DNA of 59,355 nucleotides from Chromatiales bacterium. Its GTDB lineage: Bacteria > Pseudomonadota > Gammaproteobacteria > RBG-16-57-12. The position numbers and the translations under genes were made by a program. Positions within the stretch are counted from its first letter, which is position 1; every line of letters starts with the position of its first letter. Location: positions 1 through 59,355 of the forward strand of contig JALSJH010000080.1 of the NCBI GenBank assembly GCA_026989455.1, in the 5' to 3' direction. Under the pieces are notes generated by a model that was not told where the DNA came from, did no database searches, and saw only the letters and a program-made list of their open reading frames with translations. This document shows, in pieces, positions 9,587-54,822 of this stretch.

Positions 9587-10633
9587 CTATAAATTGAGTA
9601 GTCGCTCATCATCATGGTGAAACCTATCCATCACCATGACCGCCTGTTTCCATTTGGGGTCGCGCAGCAACTCTACCCGGGTCACGCTGTGTCGCCCATG
9701 CATTCGCGCTAAACGACTGTGGGAGGCGGCATCATTGCGATCTTTAAGCCCTTGTAATATTTCGAGTGCGGCGCTGCGGTGGTTACACACTAGCAGCATA
9801 TCACAGCCCGCATCCAACGCTTTTTCGGCACGTTCAACAAAATCCCCACCCGCTCCGGCCGCCGCCATACTGAGGTCGTCACTAAAGATAACCCCCTGAA
9901 AATTCAAACGCTTGCGCAGTACCTCCTGTAACCAGAAGTGTGAGAAGCCTGCCGGTTGCTCATCACAGCGGCGGTAGATCACATGGGCGGGCATAATGGC
10001 GGCCATACCGTAGTTGATCATGCGTTCGAAGGGCAAGATGTCATCCGGGTAGATATCTTCATAGCGACGTTCATCTACCGGCATTGCGGTATGTGAATCG
10101 GCACTGACCCAGCCATGACCGGGAAAGTGCTTACCGGTTGCGGGCATACCCGCCGACTGCATACCGATCATGTACGCGTGGGCAAGCTCGGCCACCGCTT
10201 GCGGGTCACGGTGCCATGCGCGGTCGCCCACCACCTCACTCTGGCCATAATCAATATCCAGCACCGGGGCAAAGCTGAAATCAACCCCCACTGCGCGCAG
10301 CTCTGCGGCCATTAACCAACCGGCGGTTTCGGCCATCTTTTTGGCACGGCGTGGATCTTTTTTATAGTGCACACCGATTTGAGCGACCGCTGGCAAACAG
10401 CTAAAGCCGGAACGAAAGCGCTGCACACGCCCCCCCTCATGGTCGACCGCCACCAGTAGTTTCGGCTGGCGTAACAAGTGAATCTCACTGATCAGCGCCG
10501 CTAACTGCTCGGGGCTTTCATAGTTGCGACTAAACAGAATCACACCGCCCACTAGCGGGTTTTGTAGCGTCTCACGATCTTCAGCGGTGAGTTCCACCCC
10601 TTGCAGGTCGAGCATAACAGGGCCAAGTGACAT
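9587..10633 (-). CDS. nagZ: Beta-N-acetylglucosaminidase NagZ
   Basis: The protein has 348 residues of glycoside hydrolase family 3. The signature AVDHEGGRVQRF sits near residue 80, the catalytic loop KHFPGHGWVSADSHTAMP near 165-180 carries the His acid/base, and the nucleophile Asp lies in GVIFSDDLSMAAA near 245. There is no signal peptide, so it acts in the cytoplasm. It removes N-acetylglucosamine from anhydro-muropeptides during murein recycling. It lies downstream of the peptide-type ABC permeases and a signal-less YkuD protein, and mpl is elsewhere in the window, so several recycling functions are encoded here. In some bacteria its product induces AmpC; no ampR or ampC is visible. Confidence 0.95.
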   Translation of the reverse strand: MSLGPVMLDLQGVELTAEDRETLQNPLVGGVILFSRNYESPEQLAALISEIHLLRQPKLLVAVDHEGGRVQRFRSGFSCLPAVAQIGVHYKKDPRRAKKMAETAGWLMAAELRAVGVDFSFAPVLDIDYGQSEVVGDRAWHRDPQAVAELAHAYMIGMQSAGMPATGKHFPGHGWVSADSHTAMPVDERRYEDIYPDDILPFERMINYGMAAIMPAHVIYRRCDEQPAGFSHFWLQEVLRKRLNFQGVIFSDDLSMAAAGAGGDFVERAEKALDAGCDMLLVCNHRSAALEILQGLKDRNDAASHSRLARMHGRHSVTRVELLRDPKWKQAVMVMDRFHHDDERLLNL

Positions 10634-49173: not shown

Positions 49174-49284
49174 CCATTCGGAGTGGTGGTGTTTTTCTTC
49201 ACGCCTTTGCACCTGCGCAAAAATTCAGGCTTGGCCTTTTCTCCTTTTACCTGCCATAACAAAAAACCAGCCCCGGGCATAAAT

Positions 49285-49334
49285 GTAGGTGCAAGCTTTA
49301 GCTTGCGACTTCGCCATCTAAAGATGGCTCCTAC
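49285..49334. repeat. REP-like palindrome pair
   Basis: Two opposed units: 49285-49308 (GTAGGTGCAAGCTTTAGCTTGCGA, plus strand) and 49311-49334 (minus strand, GTAGGAGCCATCTTTAGATGGCGA). The first has a different stem (GCAAGC/GCTTGC) but keeps GTAG and the final GCGA. The same two stem types pair again near 54707. The pair lies between convergent genes. Confidence 0.88.
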
Positions 49335-49381
49335 GGGGGCTTTGGGGACACAAGTTTTTTAGCCTCATCCTCTTCGTGATT

Positions 49382-50905
49382 TCATGCAGGCGGATACACC
49401 GCCACTTGATTACGACCGTTTTTCTTGGCGTGATAGAGCGCTTCATCCGCTTCTTTAAAGAGACTCTCCACCGCCTCGGTCTCCGCTCTTAAGCAGCTGA
49501 CACCGATACTGGCGGTGACTGAAATCGAGCCGTTATTATCCAGCTCAACCGGCATTTCACCAATAGCATTACGCACTTTATTGGCAATTTCGCTTACATA
49601 TTTAGTGTCGGTTTCAGTGAGTATGACCACGATCTCCTCCCCCCCATAACGCCCGATAAAATCTGTCTCCCGTAAGCTGTTGCGAATGCGGGTACTGGCT
49701 TGGCGTAATACTTCATCTCCAGCCAAGTGACCATAATTATCATTGACGAGTTTAAAGAGATCGAGGTCGATGATCAGGAGGGCAAACTCGTGGCGATAAC
49801 GGCGTGCCCGTTTAAACTCCATCGCCAGCATCTCCTCCAGATAGCCCCGGTTCCAGAGTCCGGTAAGCGCATCGGTTTTGCTCAGCATCTCTATCTCCTG
49901 GGTACGCTCCTTCACCATGGCTTCCAGTCGTGCTTTCTCTTCTCGGGACTGTTCATGGGTATAACGATAGATAGTGTAGGCTATAAACAGAGCAAAGATA
50001 ATCGCCGCGCCACTGGTCGCTACAGCGGTGGCTAACAGTTTCTGTTTATTGGCGGCATAGGGGGCCGCGTCGATCAGCAGCAGCAGGCGTTCATCATTCA
50101 CGGAGATGTGGCTCCCCTCATCGGCAAGGATTCGATAGACCGGGCTGTTATCGACTTCAATCAACTGAGAGGTATTAAAAGATGTAAAGTCGATGCGCTC
50201 TCCAATGCTCTCAACATTGCTACTCATTACAATCTCCCCACTTTCATTGACAATGGCGAGTTGAATAATATTTTTGGCTGATTTTACATAGCTATCCAAA
50301 AAGGTGTGAATATCAATGGTTTTAAAAATATCCAAGCTATTTTTCACCGAACCCTCAATGGCCTTGAGCAGATTGAGAATATCGACCTGGCGACGTAACA
50401 GCGAAAATTCAACATTGTCACGAACAACAACATCATATTCAGAAATATCCACGGAGAGATCAATATAGCCAATCACTTGCCCACTCACCCTTAGGGGGTA
50501 GTAAATCGCCATCACCGGCACGTAGTCACGCTCTTCGAAAAAGAATTCCCCGCCATATTCCGGGTTGCTCATCACCCGTTTAAAGCCTGTTCGATGATAT
50601 TGGACACCGATCTCCTCTTTAAACATCGAGTTACTGATGGTGCCATCCGGTTCGATGTAACGAAACTCGAAGATCTCCAGCCCAAGGGAGACCTCACCCA
50701 TCAGCTTCTGTAAGTTCATGGTACTTTTAACTTCATGAAAGCGGTCAATACTGGCAATAATGGAACTGACAATATCACCCGCATCACTCTGCATTTGATG
50801 CAGTAACAGATCTTTTTGGGTGTTGTAATTATATAACGACAACGATGACAGGGTGATCGCCAGGGTCAGCAGCGCGAGGGGGATGTTATATTTTTTAAAA
50901 CCCAT
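49382..50905 (-). CDS. Membrane diguanylate cyclase (GGDEF) with periplasmic sensor
   Basis: The protein has 507 residues. A membrane span near residues 9-28 (ALLTLAITLSSLSLY) is followed by a periplasmic region of about 255 residues (probable dCache/PAS-like sensor), a second span near 290-312 (ATAVATSGAAIIFALFIAYTIY), a coiled linker, and a GGDEF domain. The active site is GRYGGEEIVVIL, and the inhibitory-site motif RETD lies 5 residues before it. It should make c-di-GMP, with product inhibition. It starts 18 bases after the tetrahaem cytochrome gene, with GAGG upstream, so it is probably part of the cytochrome operon. Confidence 0.92.
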   Translation of the reverse strand: MGFKKYNIPLALLTLAITLSSLSLYNYNTQKDLLLHQMQSDAGDIVSSIIASIDRFHEVKSTMNLQKLMGEVSLGLEIFEFRYIEPDGTISNSMFKEEIGVQYHRTGFKRVMSNPEYGGEFFFEERDYVPVMAIYYPLRVSGQVIGYIDLSVDISEYDVVVRDNVEFSLLRRQVDILNLLKAIEGSVKNSLDIFKTIDIHTFLDSYVKSAKNIIQLAIVNESGEIVMSSNVESIGERIDFTSFNTSQLIEVDNSPVYRILADEGSHISVNDERLLLLIDAAPYAANKQKLLATAVATSGAAIIFALFIAYTIYRYTHEQSREEKARLEAMVKERTQEIEMLSKTDALTGLWNRGYLEEMLAMEFKRARRYRHEFALLIIDLDLFKLVNDNYGHLAGDEVLRQASTRIRNSLRETDFIGRYGGEEIVVILTETDTKYVSEIANKVRNAIGEMPVELDNNGSISVTASIGVSCLRAETEAVESLFKEADEALYHAKKNGRNQVAVYPPA

Positions 50906-50923
50906 AGCAATGCCTCATTAAAA

Positions 50924-51505
50924 CTATTTTGGCGTGGGATTACTGTATTTTTTGTAAACCACCTCAAAGTCGCTTGGGTGAAAAGAGCGATCCCAACGTT
51001 CTGTATGGCAGCTTTGGCACATCTTTTTTATCCGCTCGGGGCGATCTGTCCCTGACAAAAAGCCACCGGCATCTCGACGTTTCACATGTACACTGCCGGG
51101 GCCATGACACCCCTCACACTGCACATTGGCCAGGCGCGGGGTCTCTTTCATACTGGTAAACCCACCCTCTATACCATAACCTGTCGCATGACAGGTGAGA
51201 CAACGCGGATTTTCCCCATACCCCATCTCAATCACCTTTTCCAAGGCGAAGTCATGCTTATCTTTTTTCCGGCCAAGGAAAAATTCACGATGACAAAGCC
51301 GGCATTTAGTGTTGCCCGCGTATGAGTAACGACCCGTAGCCATCGCCGCATCATAAATCTCTTGGCCCAGCACGTTGATTAAGGGGGGAACGGGTAACGG
51401 CTCTTTTAACACAGCCTGAATCCGCGCCTCGCTGGCCTGCAAGGTGGCACAAAAGAGCGTCAACAACAAAACAACCACCAATAACCGAAACAACTCCATC
51501 ACCAT
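50924..51505 (-). CDS. Periplasmic tetrahaem cytochrome c
   Basis: The protein has 193 residues with a signal peptide (LFRLLVVVLLLTLFCATLQASEA) and four CxxCH haem motifs (CRLCH, CLTCH, CEGCH, CQSCH), resembling the cytochrome c554-type family. It would carry electrons in the periplasm, perhaps between inner-membrane quinol enzymes and the decahaem protein. The start overlaps the barrel gene stop: the ATG at 51505 overlaps by 7 bases, and a second ATG at 51499 shares one base (TGATG). It lies between the MtrB-like gene and the GGDEF gene. Confidence 0.9.
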   Translation of the reverse strand: MVMELFRLLVVVLLLTLFCATLQASEARIQAVLKEPLPVPPLINVLGQEIYDAAMATGRYSYAGNTKCRLCHREFFLGRKKDKHDFALEKVIEMGYGENPRCLTCHATGYGIEGGFTSMKETPRLANVQCEGCHGPGSVHVKRRDAGGFLSGTDRPERIKKMCQSCHTERWDRSFHPSDFEVVYKKYSNPTPK

Positions 51506-53697
51506 TTAAACCGCAAAGCCGTATAGACAATATAGGCGGTATAATCGGGTTCTGCTGCCATCAGTGTAATCAACTCCTCCGAGGCATCAGAGCCCGGTGA
51601 AATAAGATCTCGGGACCACTCTCTGTCGCGAAGTGATTCATAAGCGAATCCAAGGCGAACATCCAACCGCCTATTAATGTAGTAGTCAGCCTCAACCTCA
51701 ACGCCCCTACGGCTGGCATAATCGTCTGGAATCGGCTCAGCCGTCAGGTTTGCCGCAGTGGTTAAAGCAATCGCATTTTTTTCCCGGCTATAAAAGGCTT
51801 TGATGTTAATCATTAAATCACCCCGCAGCAGTGAAAAACGGCTACCCGCACCCACAGTATTCAGGAGATCACGGTTATCAGCACGCCAATTATTTTCAGG
51901 ATCATTGGCGGTAACCTCTTTGGTGCCCGGTGGGCCAGCAGAGTTGAACTCACGACCGTCAATGGCAGAGCCCAGCCATTCACGGGTAAAGTAACCAAAC
52001 AGGGTGAAATCCGGGTTGGGCGTATAACTGACATCGAGGGTAGTCACGCGTTGCCTTTGGCCATCCAGCCCTAACTGCTCCTCCGTGTAACGCTGCCGAT
52101 TGAGCGTATGGTACAGCCCGACAACCACATCCGGATAGGGGTAAAGGTTAAGCGTCAGGTTCAGATTATTGCGGTTGCGATTGGCAATATCATATTGACG
52201 CAGTGCCGGGTTGTTACTGAACTGCTCATTGCTATCGACCGTATCGGTGTAGTCACTGGTATAAAAAGGTTGGTAAGCCAGAGAGTGATCATAAGCCCCT
52301 TTATAACGGCGCTTATCCCGTTGCAAACCAATACCAACGCTCATTTGAGGGGAGAGTCGACTGTTAAAGCGGGCACTAATACCCCGTTCCTGGGTCATTT
52401 TAGCGGCCCGCTGGCTGCGTTCGACACCCTCCTGAAAGAGAGCTATTTTCAGCGAAGTACCTCGACCAAAATAGTAGCTACTATCCAGCTTCAGCCGTGA
52501 GCGTCTCTGTTGATAAGGGCGATTATAGTTGGCTCGGCTACTATCGATGGCACTTTGAGCGGTACCACCCACCTCACCCGTGTCATTGACCACCCGCTGA
52601 AACAGATCAACCGGGGTGTTGTTGCGGCTCCTGTCATAGTTGTAACCCAGGTTAAGCGACAATCGTCGAAGTGGCTTGCCACTGAGTTTTAGGTGCAGGC
52701 GGCGGGTTTCGACTTCTGCTTGTGTGGCGCTTCGTAGCAACGGATCCGTAATGAGAGCGTCAGGGTTAATGGTATAGGCCTGCATGCCACTATCTTGCCT
52801 CATCTTCCCCATATTAGCCGCAATAACCAATCGAATTCTAGGTGCGAAATTGAGTGCGCCACTGAAACCTAAATTGTAGTAACGGTTATCGGGGTCCAGT
52901 GAGATGGCGGCCTGCTGTGGATAGTCAGAGCGTTCATTGTAGGGATTATCCCAGGTTAGCGTGGTATCACGGTTATTGAAGCGAGACCACTGATAGTTAA
53001 GCTCCCACTGCTTAACCGGATCCTGGTAACCTAGGGTACCTTCAATATTTTCGGTGCGTTGATCCACTGGGGCAGGTAGTACAATGGCTGGATAATTATC
53101 GGCGCGACGCGCAATACCGACAACAGCACCCAACGATTCACTGCCTGATCGTTTCTCGCGAAAGAAAGCGATGCGTGCATACCAGTTTTCACTGGGAGCC
53201 AGCACCAGCTCCAGTCGGTTACGGTTTCGTTGAGTGGCAAGATCGATGGGCTTTAGATACTCAGCCAGCGTCATATCTCCTGGCGTAGCACCAAGTATAA
53301 AGCCTTCCGGCAACGTGAGCCGATCACTGCCCACCCCCTCGTACGAGGTGAGCCCATTAACACCAGAAAATGCAACCATTTGACGATGTTGGAACGAGAG
53401 CTCAAATAACCCGTACTCTCCCCAACTTAACCCCAGCTGCCGAGAGTCCAGCCCTAAATTATCACCGTCAAACCTTAAATATCTATTTTTTTTGTAGATG
53501 TTAAAGTCAAATTCAGCTAGTAATTTTTGTGCATTATCACTCACGCCATTATACTGCCCGACCACCGTATTGGGTTGATCAATATCAAAGTTGATAAACC
53601 CCACCGAAAGCTCACCCTCCAGCTCCGTCGCCTGAACACCATTGAAAAGCGCGCCACCCAACAGCAAAAAAGTTTGAAAAAAAGCTCTTTTTCTCAT
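51499..53697 (-). CDS. MtrB/PioB family outer-membrane porin of a cytochrome conduit
   Basis: The protein has about 732 residues: a signal peptide, then a long barrel with alternating strands and many Tyr, Arg and Asn residues. It ends in Tyr-Thr-Ala-Leu-Arg-Phe-Lys-Trp. Length and layout match MtrB/PioB, the barrel that holds a decahaem cytochrome in the outer membrane. I see no Cys at all, so the N-terminal CxxC found in some Shewanella MtrB proteins is absent. The ATG at 53697 has AGGAG 9 bases upstream, and that AGGAG overlaps the stop of the decahaem gene, giving tight coupling. Confidence 0.88.
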   Translation of the reverse strand: MRKRAFFQTFLLLGGALFNGVQATELEGELSVGFINFDIDQPNTVVGQYNGVSDNAQKLLAEFDFNIYKKNRYLRFDGDNLGLDSRQLGLSWGEYGLFELSFQHRQMVAFSGVNGLTSYEGVGSDRLTLPEGFILGATPGDMTLAEYLKPIDLATQRNRNRLELVLAPSENWYARIAFFREKRSGSESLGAVVGIARRADNYPAIVLPAPVDQRTENIEGTLGYQDPVKQWELNYQWSRFNNRDTTLTWDNPYNERSDYPQQAAISLDPDNRYYNLGFSGALNFAPRIRLVIAANMGKMRQDSGMQAYTINPDALITDPLLRSATQAEVETRRLHLKLSGKPLRRLSLNLGYNYDRSRNNTPVDLFQRVVNDTGEVGGTAQSAIDSSRANYNRPYQQRRSRLKLDSSYYFGRGTSLKIALFQEGVERSQRAAKMTQERGISARFNSRLSPQMSVGIGLQRDKRRYKGAYDHSLAYQPFYTSDYTDTVDSNEQFSNNPALRQYDIANRNRNNLNLTLNLYPYPDVVVGLYHTLNRQRYTEEQLGLDGQRQRVTTLDVSYTPNPDFTLFGYFTREWLGSAIDGREFNSAGPPGTKEVTANDPENNWRADNRDLLNTVGAGSRFSLLRGDLMINIKAFYSREKNAIALTTAANLTAEPIPDDYASRRGVEVEADYYINRRLDVRLGFAYESLRDREWSRDLISPGSDASEELITLMAAEPDYTAYIVYTALRFKW

Positions 53698-53709
53698 GTT
53701 CAATATCTC

Positions 53710-54606
53710 CTAGCGCTGTAACGCTGCGCCGGATGGATGGCTTGAACCGTGAATCTTGCTGTGGCAATTCACGCAGGACTTCCCGCCCATAAACTTGCTA
53801 ATCGAGGTACCTGAAAGCCCGCTCCCCCCTCTAACCTCACTGGGGTGAAATACGGTCTGGTGACAGCTTTGACACAGATAGGGGGGGCGCATTTTCAGCA
53901 TTCCATTATGACTGGAGCCGTGAGGGTCGTGACAGGTCGCGCAGTTTTCCTGTACCGGCGCATGCCCCCAAATGAATGGCCCACGTTTTTCCGCATGGCA
54001 CTGGTAACAAGTCTCATTCAGTGAGGGCTTGCTCAACGCCGCATCGGTGCTGCTGCCGTGTGCGTTGTGGCAGTCCATACATGATATAACCCCTTCACGC
54101 ATCGGCATGTGGCTGGAGCGTTGCAGCTTGGCGCGAATCTCAGTATGGCAATTTTCACAGACCTTGGGCTTTACCTCACGCTGTTTACTGTGAAGGGTGT
54201 GGCAACTGGTACAGGCGAGATCACTCATCTGGTGTAGACTGCCAGACCAGTGCAGGGTATCCCCACCTTGATGACAACCACTACACAGCTCATTAATTGA
54301 CTCTATATTGTCACTCTCAGGCTTGAAGGATTGGATCAGTTGCGGGCCACTGTAACCATCAACTCCGGCAACATCCAGATGCCTGGCTCCCTCTCCATGA
54401 CAAGCCTCACACCCTCGCGCCTCCCACTTATTGCGCGGTGTGTTGGAGAAGAGCACACCGTGGCTACTCTGCAAGAAACCTGTATTTTTTTTAATGTATT
54501 TATGACAGAGATAGCACTCTTTATCACCCACATCGTGATTGTCCGGCTCAGCGTTAACCGATGAACTGAGCACAAACAGCATCAACACCAACATCCATGC
54601 AGACAA
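53710..54606 (-). CDS. Decahaem c-type cytochrome (MtrA/DmsE/PioA type)
   Basis: The protein has 298 residues with a signal peptide (LVLMLFVLSSSVNA) and exactly ten CxxCH motifs (CYLCH, CEACH, CSGCH, CTSCH, CENCH, CMDCH, CYQCH, CATCH, CQSCH, CVNCH). This matches the DmsE/MtrA family, which forms a haem wire inside an MtrB-type barrel. It starts with TTG at 54606, supported by AAGGGG 6 bases upstream; the next ATG (54594) lacks a site. It is the first gene of the operon with the barrel, tetrahaem cytochrome and GGDEF genes. No MtrC/OmcA-type outer cytochrome is in the window. Confidence 0.94.
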   Translation of the reverse strand: MSAWMLVLMLFVLSSSVNAEPDNHDVGDKECYLCHKYIKKNTGFLQSSHGVLFSNTPRNKWEARGCEACHGEGARHLDVAGVDGYSGPQLIQSFKPESDNIESINELCSGCHQGGDTLHWSGSLHQMSDLACTSCHTLHSKQREVKPKVCENCHTEIRAKLQRSSHMPMREGVISCMDCHNAHGSSTDAALSKPSLNETCYQCHAEKRGPFIWGHAPVQENCATCHDPHGSSHNGMLKMRPPYLCQSCHQTVFHPSEVRGGSGLSGTSISKFMGGKSCVNCHSKIHGSSHPSGAALQR

Positions 54607-54706
54607 AACAGACCCCTTAATAGCGCGCTCACCACCCCACGGGCGAGCCGTCGTAACGTACCAGCTTATCGCCCTTTTTTAGCATAGCTTTAACCCAAAC
54701 ATAGAG

Positions 54707-54769
54707 GTAGGAGCAAGCTTTAGCTTGCGATAAACCCTGCGGCTTCGCCATCTAATAGGTGGCTCCTAC
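54707..54769. repeat. REP-like palindrome pair
   Basis: Units lie at 54707-54730 (plus, GTAG then GAGCAAGCTTTAGCTTGCGA) and 54745-54769 (minus, GTAGGAGCCACCTATTAGATGGCGA). The two stem types are the same as in the pair at 49285, but in this copy the second stem is less perfect. The pair sits between the dgkA stop and the decahaem cytochrome start, both on the minus strand. Confidence 0.85.
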
Positions 54770-54822
54770 AAAACAGTAGAGGCCTATTTTTTGATTTCTC
54801 ATAAGGAAGAGCGAAGTAACCC

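Follow-up and report, generated by a model that had tools for sequence, protein, structure and literature searches.

It is largely an open question by what means bacteria using solids for respiration or as food perceive that electrons are flowing and decide to remain attached. The genes around MtrCAB conduits have been surveyed, and tetrahaem or other cytochromes were found beside mtrB in some groups, with GGDEF, chemotaxis and kinase terms unmentioned (PMC8805035). In Geobacter, cyclic dinucleotide enzymes affect growth on electrodes, and the genes that the study names have locus numbers separate from those of the conduit genes (PMC5585712). Signalling through cytochromes or haem has also been described: in the trimethylamine N-oxide (TMAO) respiration of Escherichia coli, the kinase TorS has a periplasmic domain to which TorC binds (PMC11727998), and the sCache_heme sensors (DUF3365/Tll0287, GSU0582) hold haem inside a Cache domain, with outputs that include GGDEF (PMC12889525). 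In this study, a stretch of 59,355 nucleotides from a Chromatiales bacterium (contig JALSJH010000080.1; the window) was analyzed. It contains a block of four genes encoding the decahaem cytochrome MtrA, the outer-membrane barrel MtrB, a tetrahaem cytochrome (TetH) and a membrane diguanylate cyclase (DGC). In the open-access literature, no account was found of a cyclase paired with a cytochrome of the c554 type, nor of a GGDEF gene after MtrB. The genome comparisons below show that the conserved unit is TetH-DGC and not conduit-DGC.

The host genome encodes 16 GGDEF domains, so that a cyclase near a cytochrome is unremarkable by itself and the weight falls on comparative evidence. A search with the DGC sensor region revealed relatives in Sulfurimonas and further Campylobacterota, in one gammaproteobacterial metagenome-assembled genome and in Nitrospinota, all at 41-54% identity, and more distant ones, at about 39-40% identity, in three further gammaproteobacteria. 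A TetH homolog precedes the cyclase in every campylobacterial and gammaproteobacterial locus whose upstream side is visible. Outside the genus, no MtrA or MtrB homolog was found at these pair loci, except for one protein of locus L031, which carries eight haem motifs, lies on the opposite strand and has 30% local similarity to MtrA. In total, 26 TetH-DGC pairs were assembled from Gammaproteobacteria and Campylobacterota (mainly Sulfurimonas); their intergenic distances range from -14 to +66 bases, mostly from -4 to +3, and 4-base overlaps are frequent. The pairs occupy at least nine neighborhoods, including those of the window and its congener, for example near tuf and ribosomal genes or near rplM/rpsI. 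In an even sample of the class (369 genomes), wherein TetH proper was taken as matches of at least 286 bits (the next best reached 88 bits), TetH proper and the sensor were present in the same five genomes, two weak sensor matches of 24-30 bits being left aside. Among 259 genomes from the order of a Sulfurimonas, TetH and the full sensor were present in the same ten genomes, and an eleventh sensor match was cut off at a contig start. The genomes in both samples are related, hence no probability is attached to these counts. A sample of 339 Pseudomonadota genomes taken across the phylum yielded no sensor other than that of the window. Across two phyla, TetH and DGC are passed on together as adjacent genes, with or without a conduit.

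Maximum-likelihood trees were built for both proteins. In each, the window and its congener group with Campylobacterota, apart from the four other gammaproteobacterial pairs, with support of 93/91 for TetH and 100/99 for DGC. The simplest reading would be a joint transfer of the two genes, in either direction, between gammaproteobacteria and Campylobacterota; the trees are midpoint-rooted and have several long branches.

The distribution of MtrB differs from that of the pair. MtrB is present in 25 of the 369 class genomes, and among these TetH-DGC was found only in the window and its congener. An initial annotation of the window, made from the sequence, had described the genes as a conduit operon with an added cyclase, and had proposed to look for GGDEF genes after MtrB-type barrels in related genomes. 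At the other 25 MtrB loci of Gammaproteobacteria, drawn from 23 genomes, neither TetH nor a related cyclase is adjacent to MtrB; three of these loci break off inside MtrB or no more than about 0.6 kb beyond it, and one fragment (G055:C158) was excluded. Conversely, none of the 13 genomes behind loci L020-L033 encodes an MtrB barrel, and 12 of them carry the TetH-DGC pair. Weak PF11854 matches in two Campylobacterota (G377 and G380) were rejected as MtrB; they are 65-residue stretches in proteins resembling TonB-dependent receptors. Outside the genus, the cyclase has TetH as its neighbor, and the initial description of the unit as a conduit operon was not supported. Among the genomes compared, MtrAB is joined to the pair only in the host genome and one congener. 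Neighborhood by itself misleads here: what is informative about the cyclase is its link to the small cytochrome rather than to the conduit.

In the genus itself, the linkage of the four genes seems genuine. The order-level comparison covered three other genomes, namely two congeners and one other member of the family. The first congener (G001, contig C45, here L019) carries all four genes in matching order, with the same overlap between MtrB and TetH. Protein identity to the window is approximately 82% for MtrB, 85% for DGC, 87% for TetH and 90% for most of MtrA. At the nucleotide level, homology between the two contigs covers positions 49,402-54,608 of the window, that is, the four genes, and otherwise consists of short repeat pieces. 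After DGC, the congener's contig continues with a Crp/Fnr-type regulator and with genes reading as nitric oxide reductase norCBQD. The block was thus retained as a unit across a change of chromosomal site. The ratio of nonsynonymous to synonymous substitution rates (dN/dS) between the congeners is 0.06 for most of MtrA (0.20 for its short first piece of 46 codons), 0.11 for MtrB, 0.08 for TetH and 0.09 for DGC; all four genes are under purifying selection. Conserved order at another site and purifying selection together support the linkage. Both the barrel and the sensor are absent from the second congener and from the other family member, so the expectation that close relatives would conserve the linkage held for one congener, at a different site, and failed for the other two genomes.

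Several features of the block itself were described correctly by the initial annotation. MtrA, MtrB, TetH and DGC follow one another in this order on the minus strand and are tightly packed (Table 1). MtrA matches TIGR03508 with 243.8 bits (cut-off 192.2), which places it in the decahaem MtrA/DmsE family, and MtrB matches TIGR03509 with 307.6 bits (cut-off 240.05) and PF11854 with 344.8 bits (cut-off 23). For MtrB, the ATG at 53,697, suitably spaced from a GAGAT, is preferred over the TTG at 53,703 that opens the listed reading frame. Counted to this ATG, the MtrA-MtrB gap is 12 bases, and the two genes are adjacent as in known conduits. MtrB and TetH overlap by 1 or 7 bases, depending on which of two candidate ATGs is used, and 18 bases separate TetH from DGC. 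Promoter- and terminator-like sites across the region did not exceed those of shuffled sequence, and co-transcription is neither shown nor excluded by the sequence; an Rfam scan gave nothing above chance. By gene content, MtrA and MtrB make up an MtrAB-type outer-membrane conduit, with electron transfer across the membrane predicted. No MtrC-type decahaem gene was found adjoining MtrAB, whose neighbors are DgkA and TetH, and most PF22113 matches elsewhere in the host genome come from another cluster, on contig C69. No quinol dehydrogenase of the NapC/CymA family was found in the host genome.

The cyclase was recognized by PF00990 (164.4 bits) and TIGR00254 (194.1 bits), and the family matches and the structural model agree with the membrane diguanylate cyclase with a periplasmic sensor of about 255 residues in the initial annotation. 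It contains a GGEEI site and an RETD inhibitory site; GGEE[FIL] and RxxD are kept in 26/26 DGC homologs. An Asp versus Ser signature separates the GGDEF enzymes that make c-di-GMP from those that make cyclic GMP-AMP (cGAMP), according to one study (PMC6456294). In a 14-row alignment of DGC, N388 and D397 are invariant, and D397 is the canonical Asp at the Hypr position. Identity as a Hypr enzyme (cGAMP synthase) was rejected, since the replacement of Asp by Ser at 347/348 was not found and D397 is invariant. With both its catalytic and its inhibitory site intact and the canonical Asp in place, DGC is predicted to make c-di-GMP, not cGAMP.

The AlphaFold2 model of the sensor region, built from 16 sequences, has a mean predicted local distance difference test (pLDDT) score of 81. 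It consists of a long membrane-anchored helix, an alpha/beta module (residues ~65-153), a linker helix, another module (~199-279) and a second membrane helix. Foldseek matched the model to WalK (E down to 2e-11) and to dCache ligand-binding domains (1e-7), with low global TM-scores, and Pfam Cache matches were weak and recurrent, in up to 15 of 16 members. The periplasmic part is thus modeled as two tandem Cache domains. A haem-binding fold, which the initial annotation had considered for this region, was not supported: neither a cysteine nor a CXXCH motif occurs in residues 1-320 of any of the 26 DGC homologs, and no histidine is invariant there. Lacking cysteine, the sensor cannot itself carry c-type haem, and binding of haem by the cyclase's own sensor was rejected as unlikely.

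TetH belongs to the cytochrome c554 family, as shown by a PF13435 (Cytochrome_C554) match of 51.5 bits (cut-off 20.8) and four CXXCH motifs. A profile comparison with cytochrome c554 of Nitrosomonas (1bvb) gave an E of 4e-12, with the haem motifs and a CHGPG stretch aligned. That cytochrome functions in hydroxylamine oxidation. Apart from those of the four haem motifs, the only fully conserved histidines of TetH are His84 and His140, so that as many as two haems may be left with an open or atypical sixth ligand position and no conserved distal histidine. Of the next-best TetH profile matches (88 bits at most), the one inspected is a UshA-like protein that is longer than TetH, bears a PCGC motif and has a tetrahaem region at its C-terminus.

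The explanation we favor, and regard as having about an even chance of being correct, is that an MtrAB conduit and a widespread TetH-DGC signaling module have been joined in one genus, with TetH as a haem-bearing co-sensor. From established family properties, we infer that TetH is periplasmic and haem-loaded and that the c-di-GMP output of DGC is under periplasmic Cache control. TetH would be exported and its four haems loaded in the periplasm. Its redox state, or a small ligand bound to a haem without a conserved distal histidine, would alter its docking on the tandem Cache domains, and this would set the synthesis of c-di-GMP and hence attachment or motility; a coupling of the cyclase to surface attachment, also put forward in the initial annotation, may exist. 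That TetH acts on the Cache region of DGC we infer only, and by analogy TorC-TorS would be the nearest precedent; the strict pairing of the two genes may lend indirect support to physical contact between cytochrome and sensor. In the genus, the position of TetH right behind MtrB, with overlapping frames, would let the cyclase report MtrAB electron traffic, and conduit expression and surface life would thereby be set together. The least certain element is that the signal in the genus would be electron flow through MtrAB. A wider proposal, which we consider rather unlikely, is that TetH-DGC would represent an undescribed class of redox receptor, spread across Campylobacterota and Gammaproteobacteria, with a Cache cyclase that has a soluble multihaem cytochrome for its co-sensor; the version in the genus would be wired to a conduit and would turn extracellular electron flow, by its rate or direction, directly into c-di-GMP.

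Three other explanations were weighed against a co-sensor role of TetH. The block could have been built from the conduit, with TetH as a periplasmic shuttle of MtrAB and the cyclase added to tie extracellular electron transfer to attachment. The MtrB/TetH overlap in both congeners and the survival of the block at a changed genomic site fit this idea, as does the tetrahaem cytochrome directly after mtrB in Group 5 Acidobacteriia (PMC8805035). However, the 25 other gammaproteobacterial MtrB loci lack TetH and TetH-cyclase pairs occur in MtrB-less genomes, and the frameshifts of the congener lie only in MtrA and MtrB, so this origin seems distinctly improbable. On the same distribution of TetH proper, a role of TetH as a mere conduit shuttle was rejected as the main explanation. 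Alternatively, TetH could be an enzyme, such as a small periplasmic oxidoreductase or a scavenger of a haem ligand, for instance nitric oxide. The Cache domains could bind its substrate or product, so that the two proteins would share a chemical and not a contact. Membership of the c554 family, the two haems without a conserved distal histidine, the general ability of Cache folds to bind small molecules, and the norCBQD-like genes adjoining the congener's block all agree with this. The nor neighborhood, however, is absent from the window and the other pair loci, and the TetH family has no known conserved catalytic signature; we consider an enzymatic partnership unlikely, if less so than a conduit origin.

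It is also conceivable that a mobile TetH-DGC pair landed behind MtrAB, with no function in the junction beyond shared transcription. The pair is found in many unrelated neighborhoods, its linkage to a conduit is restricted to one genus, and two repetitive extragenic palindromic (REP)-like copies in the same orientation flank the block. These copies (GTAGGAGCAAGCTTTAGCTTGC..., direct-repeat family D1) are 90% identical over 31 nt, and their spacing of 5422 brackets the four genes. Against a functionless cassette stand the four genes in the same order with the MtrB/TetH overlap, under purifying selection, at two sites in two species. We regard this explanation as a minority possibility, about on a par with the wider receptor proposal.

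Several observations speak against the explanation that we favor. In Nitrospinota, the same sensor is found on kinase outputs with no adjacent TetH, and it may work alone or with another partner. A solitary TetH without a cyclase lies near ATP synthase genes in the genome of one gammaproteobacterium (G313:C98; L116:6212-6958). The four-gene block was seen in two genomes only. In the congener, 1-base deletions occur in MtrA and MtrB (L019:449-3554), that of MtrA near position 563, in an A run, and that of MtrB near 2675, outside any run, while TetH and DGC are open. The deletions may be sequencing errors or recent decay, despite the low dN/dS; if real, their restriction to MtrA and MtrB would argue against dependence of the pair on the conduit. 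Finally, the AlphaFold2 model of TetH (pLDDT 55) was too poor and was not used.

Further observations concern the surroundings of these genes. The block in the window is flanked by a LON-domain/flavoprotein pair on one side and DgkA on the other. Short REP-like pieces also match positions ~55-146 and 25,130 of the window, as well as ~10,300-10,390 of the congener contig. The genome with the solitary TetH (G313) also holds a TetH-DGC pair, and at L080 (G336) two tandem TetH genes lie ahead of the cyclase. The Nitrospinota loci (L032:5779-12469 and L033:4577-7990) encode, in tandem copies, proteins in which the same tandem Cache sensor is joined to different outputs, namely hybrid histidine kinases and an Hpt/CheA-like protein with a HATPase. 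A host protein (L117:6029-7438; G000:C22) combines a PCGC motif with a C-terminal tetrahaem c554 domain and resembles the NCBI UshA-like (seleno)protein family; single matches of similar strength and length occur in about 40 gammaproteobacterial genomes. The same genome contains a second multihaem cluster (L137; G000:C69:1-10768), with a 12-haem NHL-repeat protein, proteins with 3, 6, 6, 8 and 7 CXXCH motifs, a polyferredoxin-like membrane protein and a 464-residue protein without a Pfam match that could be a barrel; the cluster is possibly another porin-cytochrome system.

Table 1. Features of the four-gene block and of the repeats around it, in window coordinates.
Feature	Position	Strand	Basis and remarks
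MtrA/DmsE-type decahaem c-type cytochrome	53710..54606	-	298 amino acids from TTG start; ten CXXCH; TIGR03508 match
MtrB/PioB outer-membrane barrel	51499..53697	-	PF11854, TIGR03509; likely ATG start 53697
TetH, predicted periplasmic c554-family tetrahaem cytochrome, 193 amino acids, signal peptide	50924..51505	-	PF13435; 1bvb profile match; 26 pairs
DGC, membrane diguanylate cyclase, 507 amino acids: transmembrane helix, periplasmic tandem Cache, transmembrane helix, coiled coil, GGDEF	49382..50905	-	PF00990, TIGR00254, AlphaFold2, Foldseek, motifs
DGC membrane-anchored sensor region (modeled), residues 1-315: Cache 1 ~65-153, linker helix 162-196, Cache 2 ~199-279	49961..50905	-	AlphaFold2, Foldseek, Pfam
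Palindromic REP-like element, immediately downstream of the block	49278..49335	.	Direct-repeat family D1 copy 1, pattern match
REP-like element, second copy, same orientation, upstream of MtrA	54700..54780	.	Direct-repeat family D1 copy 2

Compared with described systems, the block resembles the MtrAB, PioAB and MtoAB conduits in having a ten-haem MtrA/DmsE cytochrome followed by an MtrB/PioB barrel, both above curated cut-offs, and differs in lacking an adjacent MtrC-like surface cytochrome and in carrying TetH and a cyclase downstream. TetH matches the profile of Nitrosomonas cytochrome c554 (1BVB), and differs in being encoded beside a cyclase. The Geobacter Esn network and the Hypr cyclase GacA likewise tie cyclic dinucleotide signaling to extracellular electron transfer (PMC5585712, PMC6456294). 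In the passages of these studies that concern them, neither a location next to a conduit nor a cytochrome partner is described, and GacA-type Hypr enzymes have Ser where the DGC of the window has the canonical Asp. The sCache_heme sensors share the extracytoplasmic Cache fold, a link to c-type haem and GGDEF among the outputs, but their CXXCH lies within the Cache domain, whereas the DGC sensor has no such motif, its Cache region is cysteine-free and the haem is in a separate protein, TetH. As a comparison of how the pair might work only, TorC-TorS is similar: there a signaling protein in the membrane is acted on, at its periplasmic domain, by a multihaem c-type cytochrome. TorC is a NapC-type pentahaem cytochrome that partners a histidine kinase, whereas the window encodes a c554-type tetrahaem cytochrome and a GGDEF cyclase. 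In sum, a Cache cyclase, a c554 cytochrome and an MtrAB conduit are known kinds that are combined here in a variant form, and the proposed mechanism is testable. Present in Sulfurimonas relatives and several gammaproteobacteria, TetH-DGC is a directly testable candidate for an electron-flow sensor.

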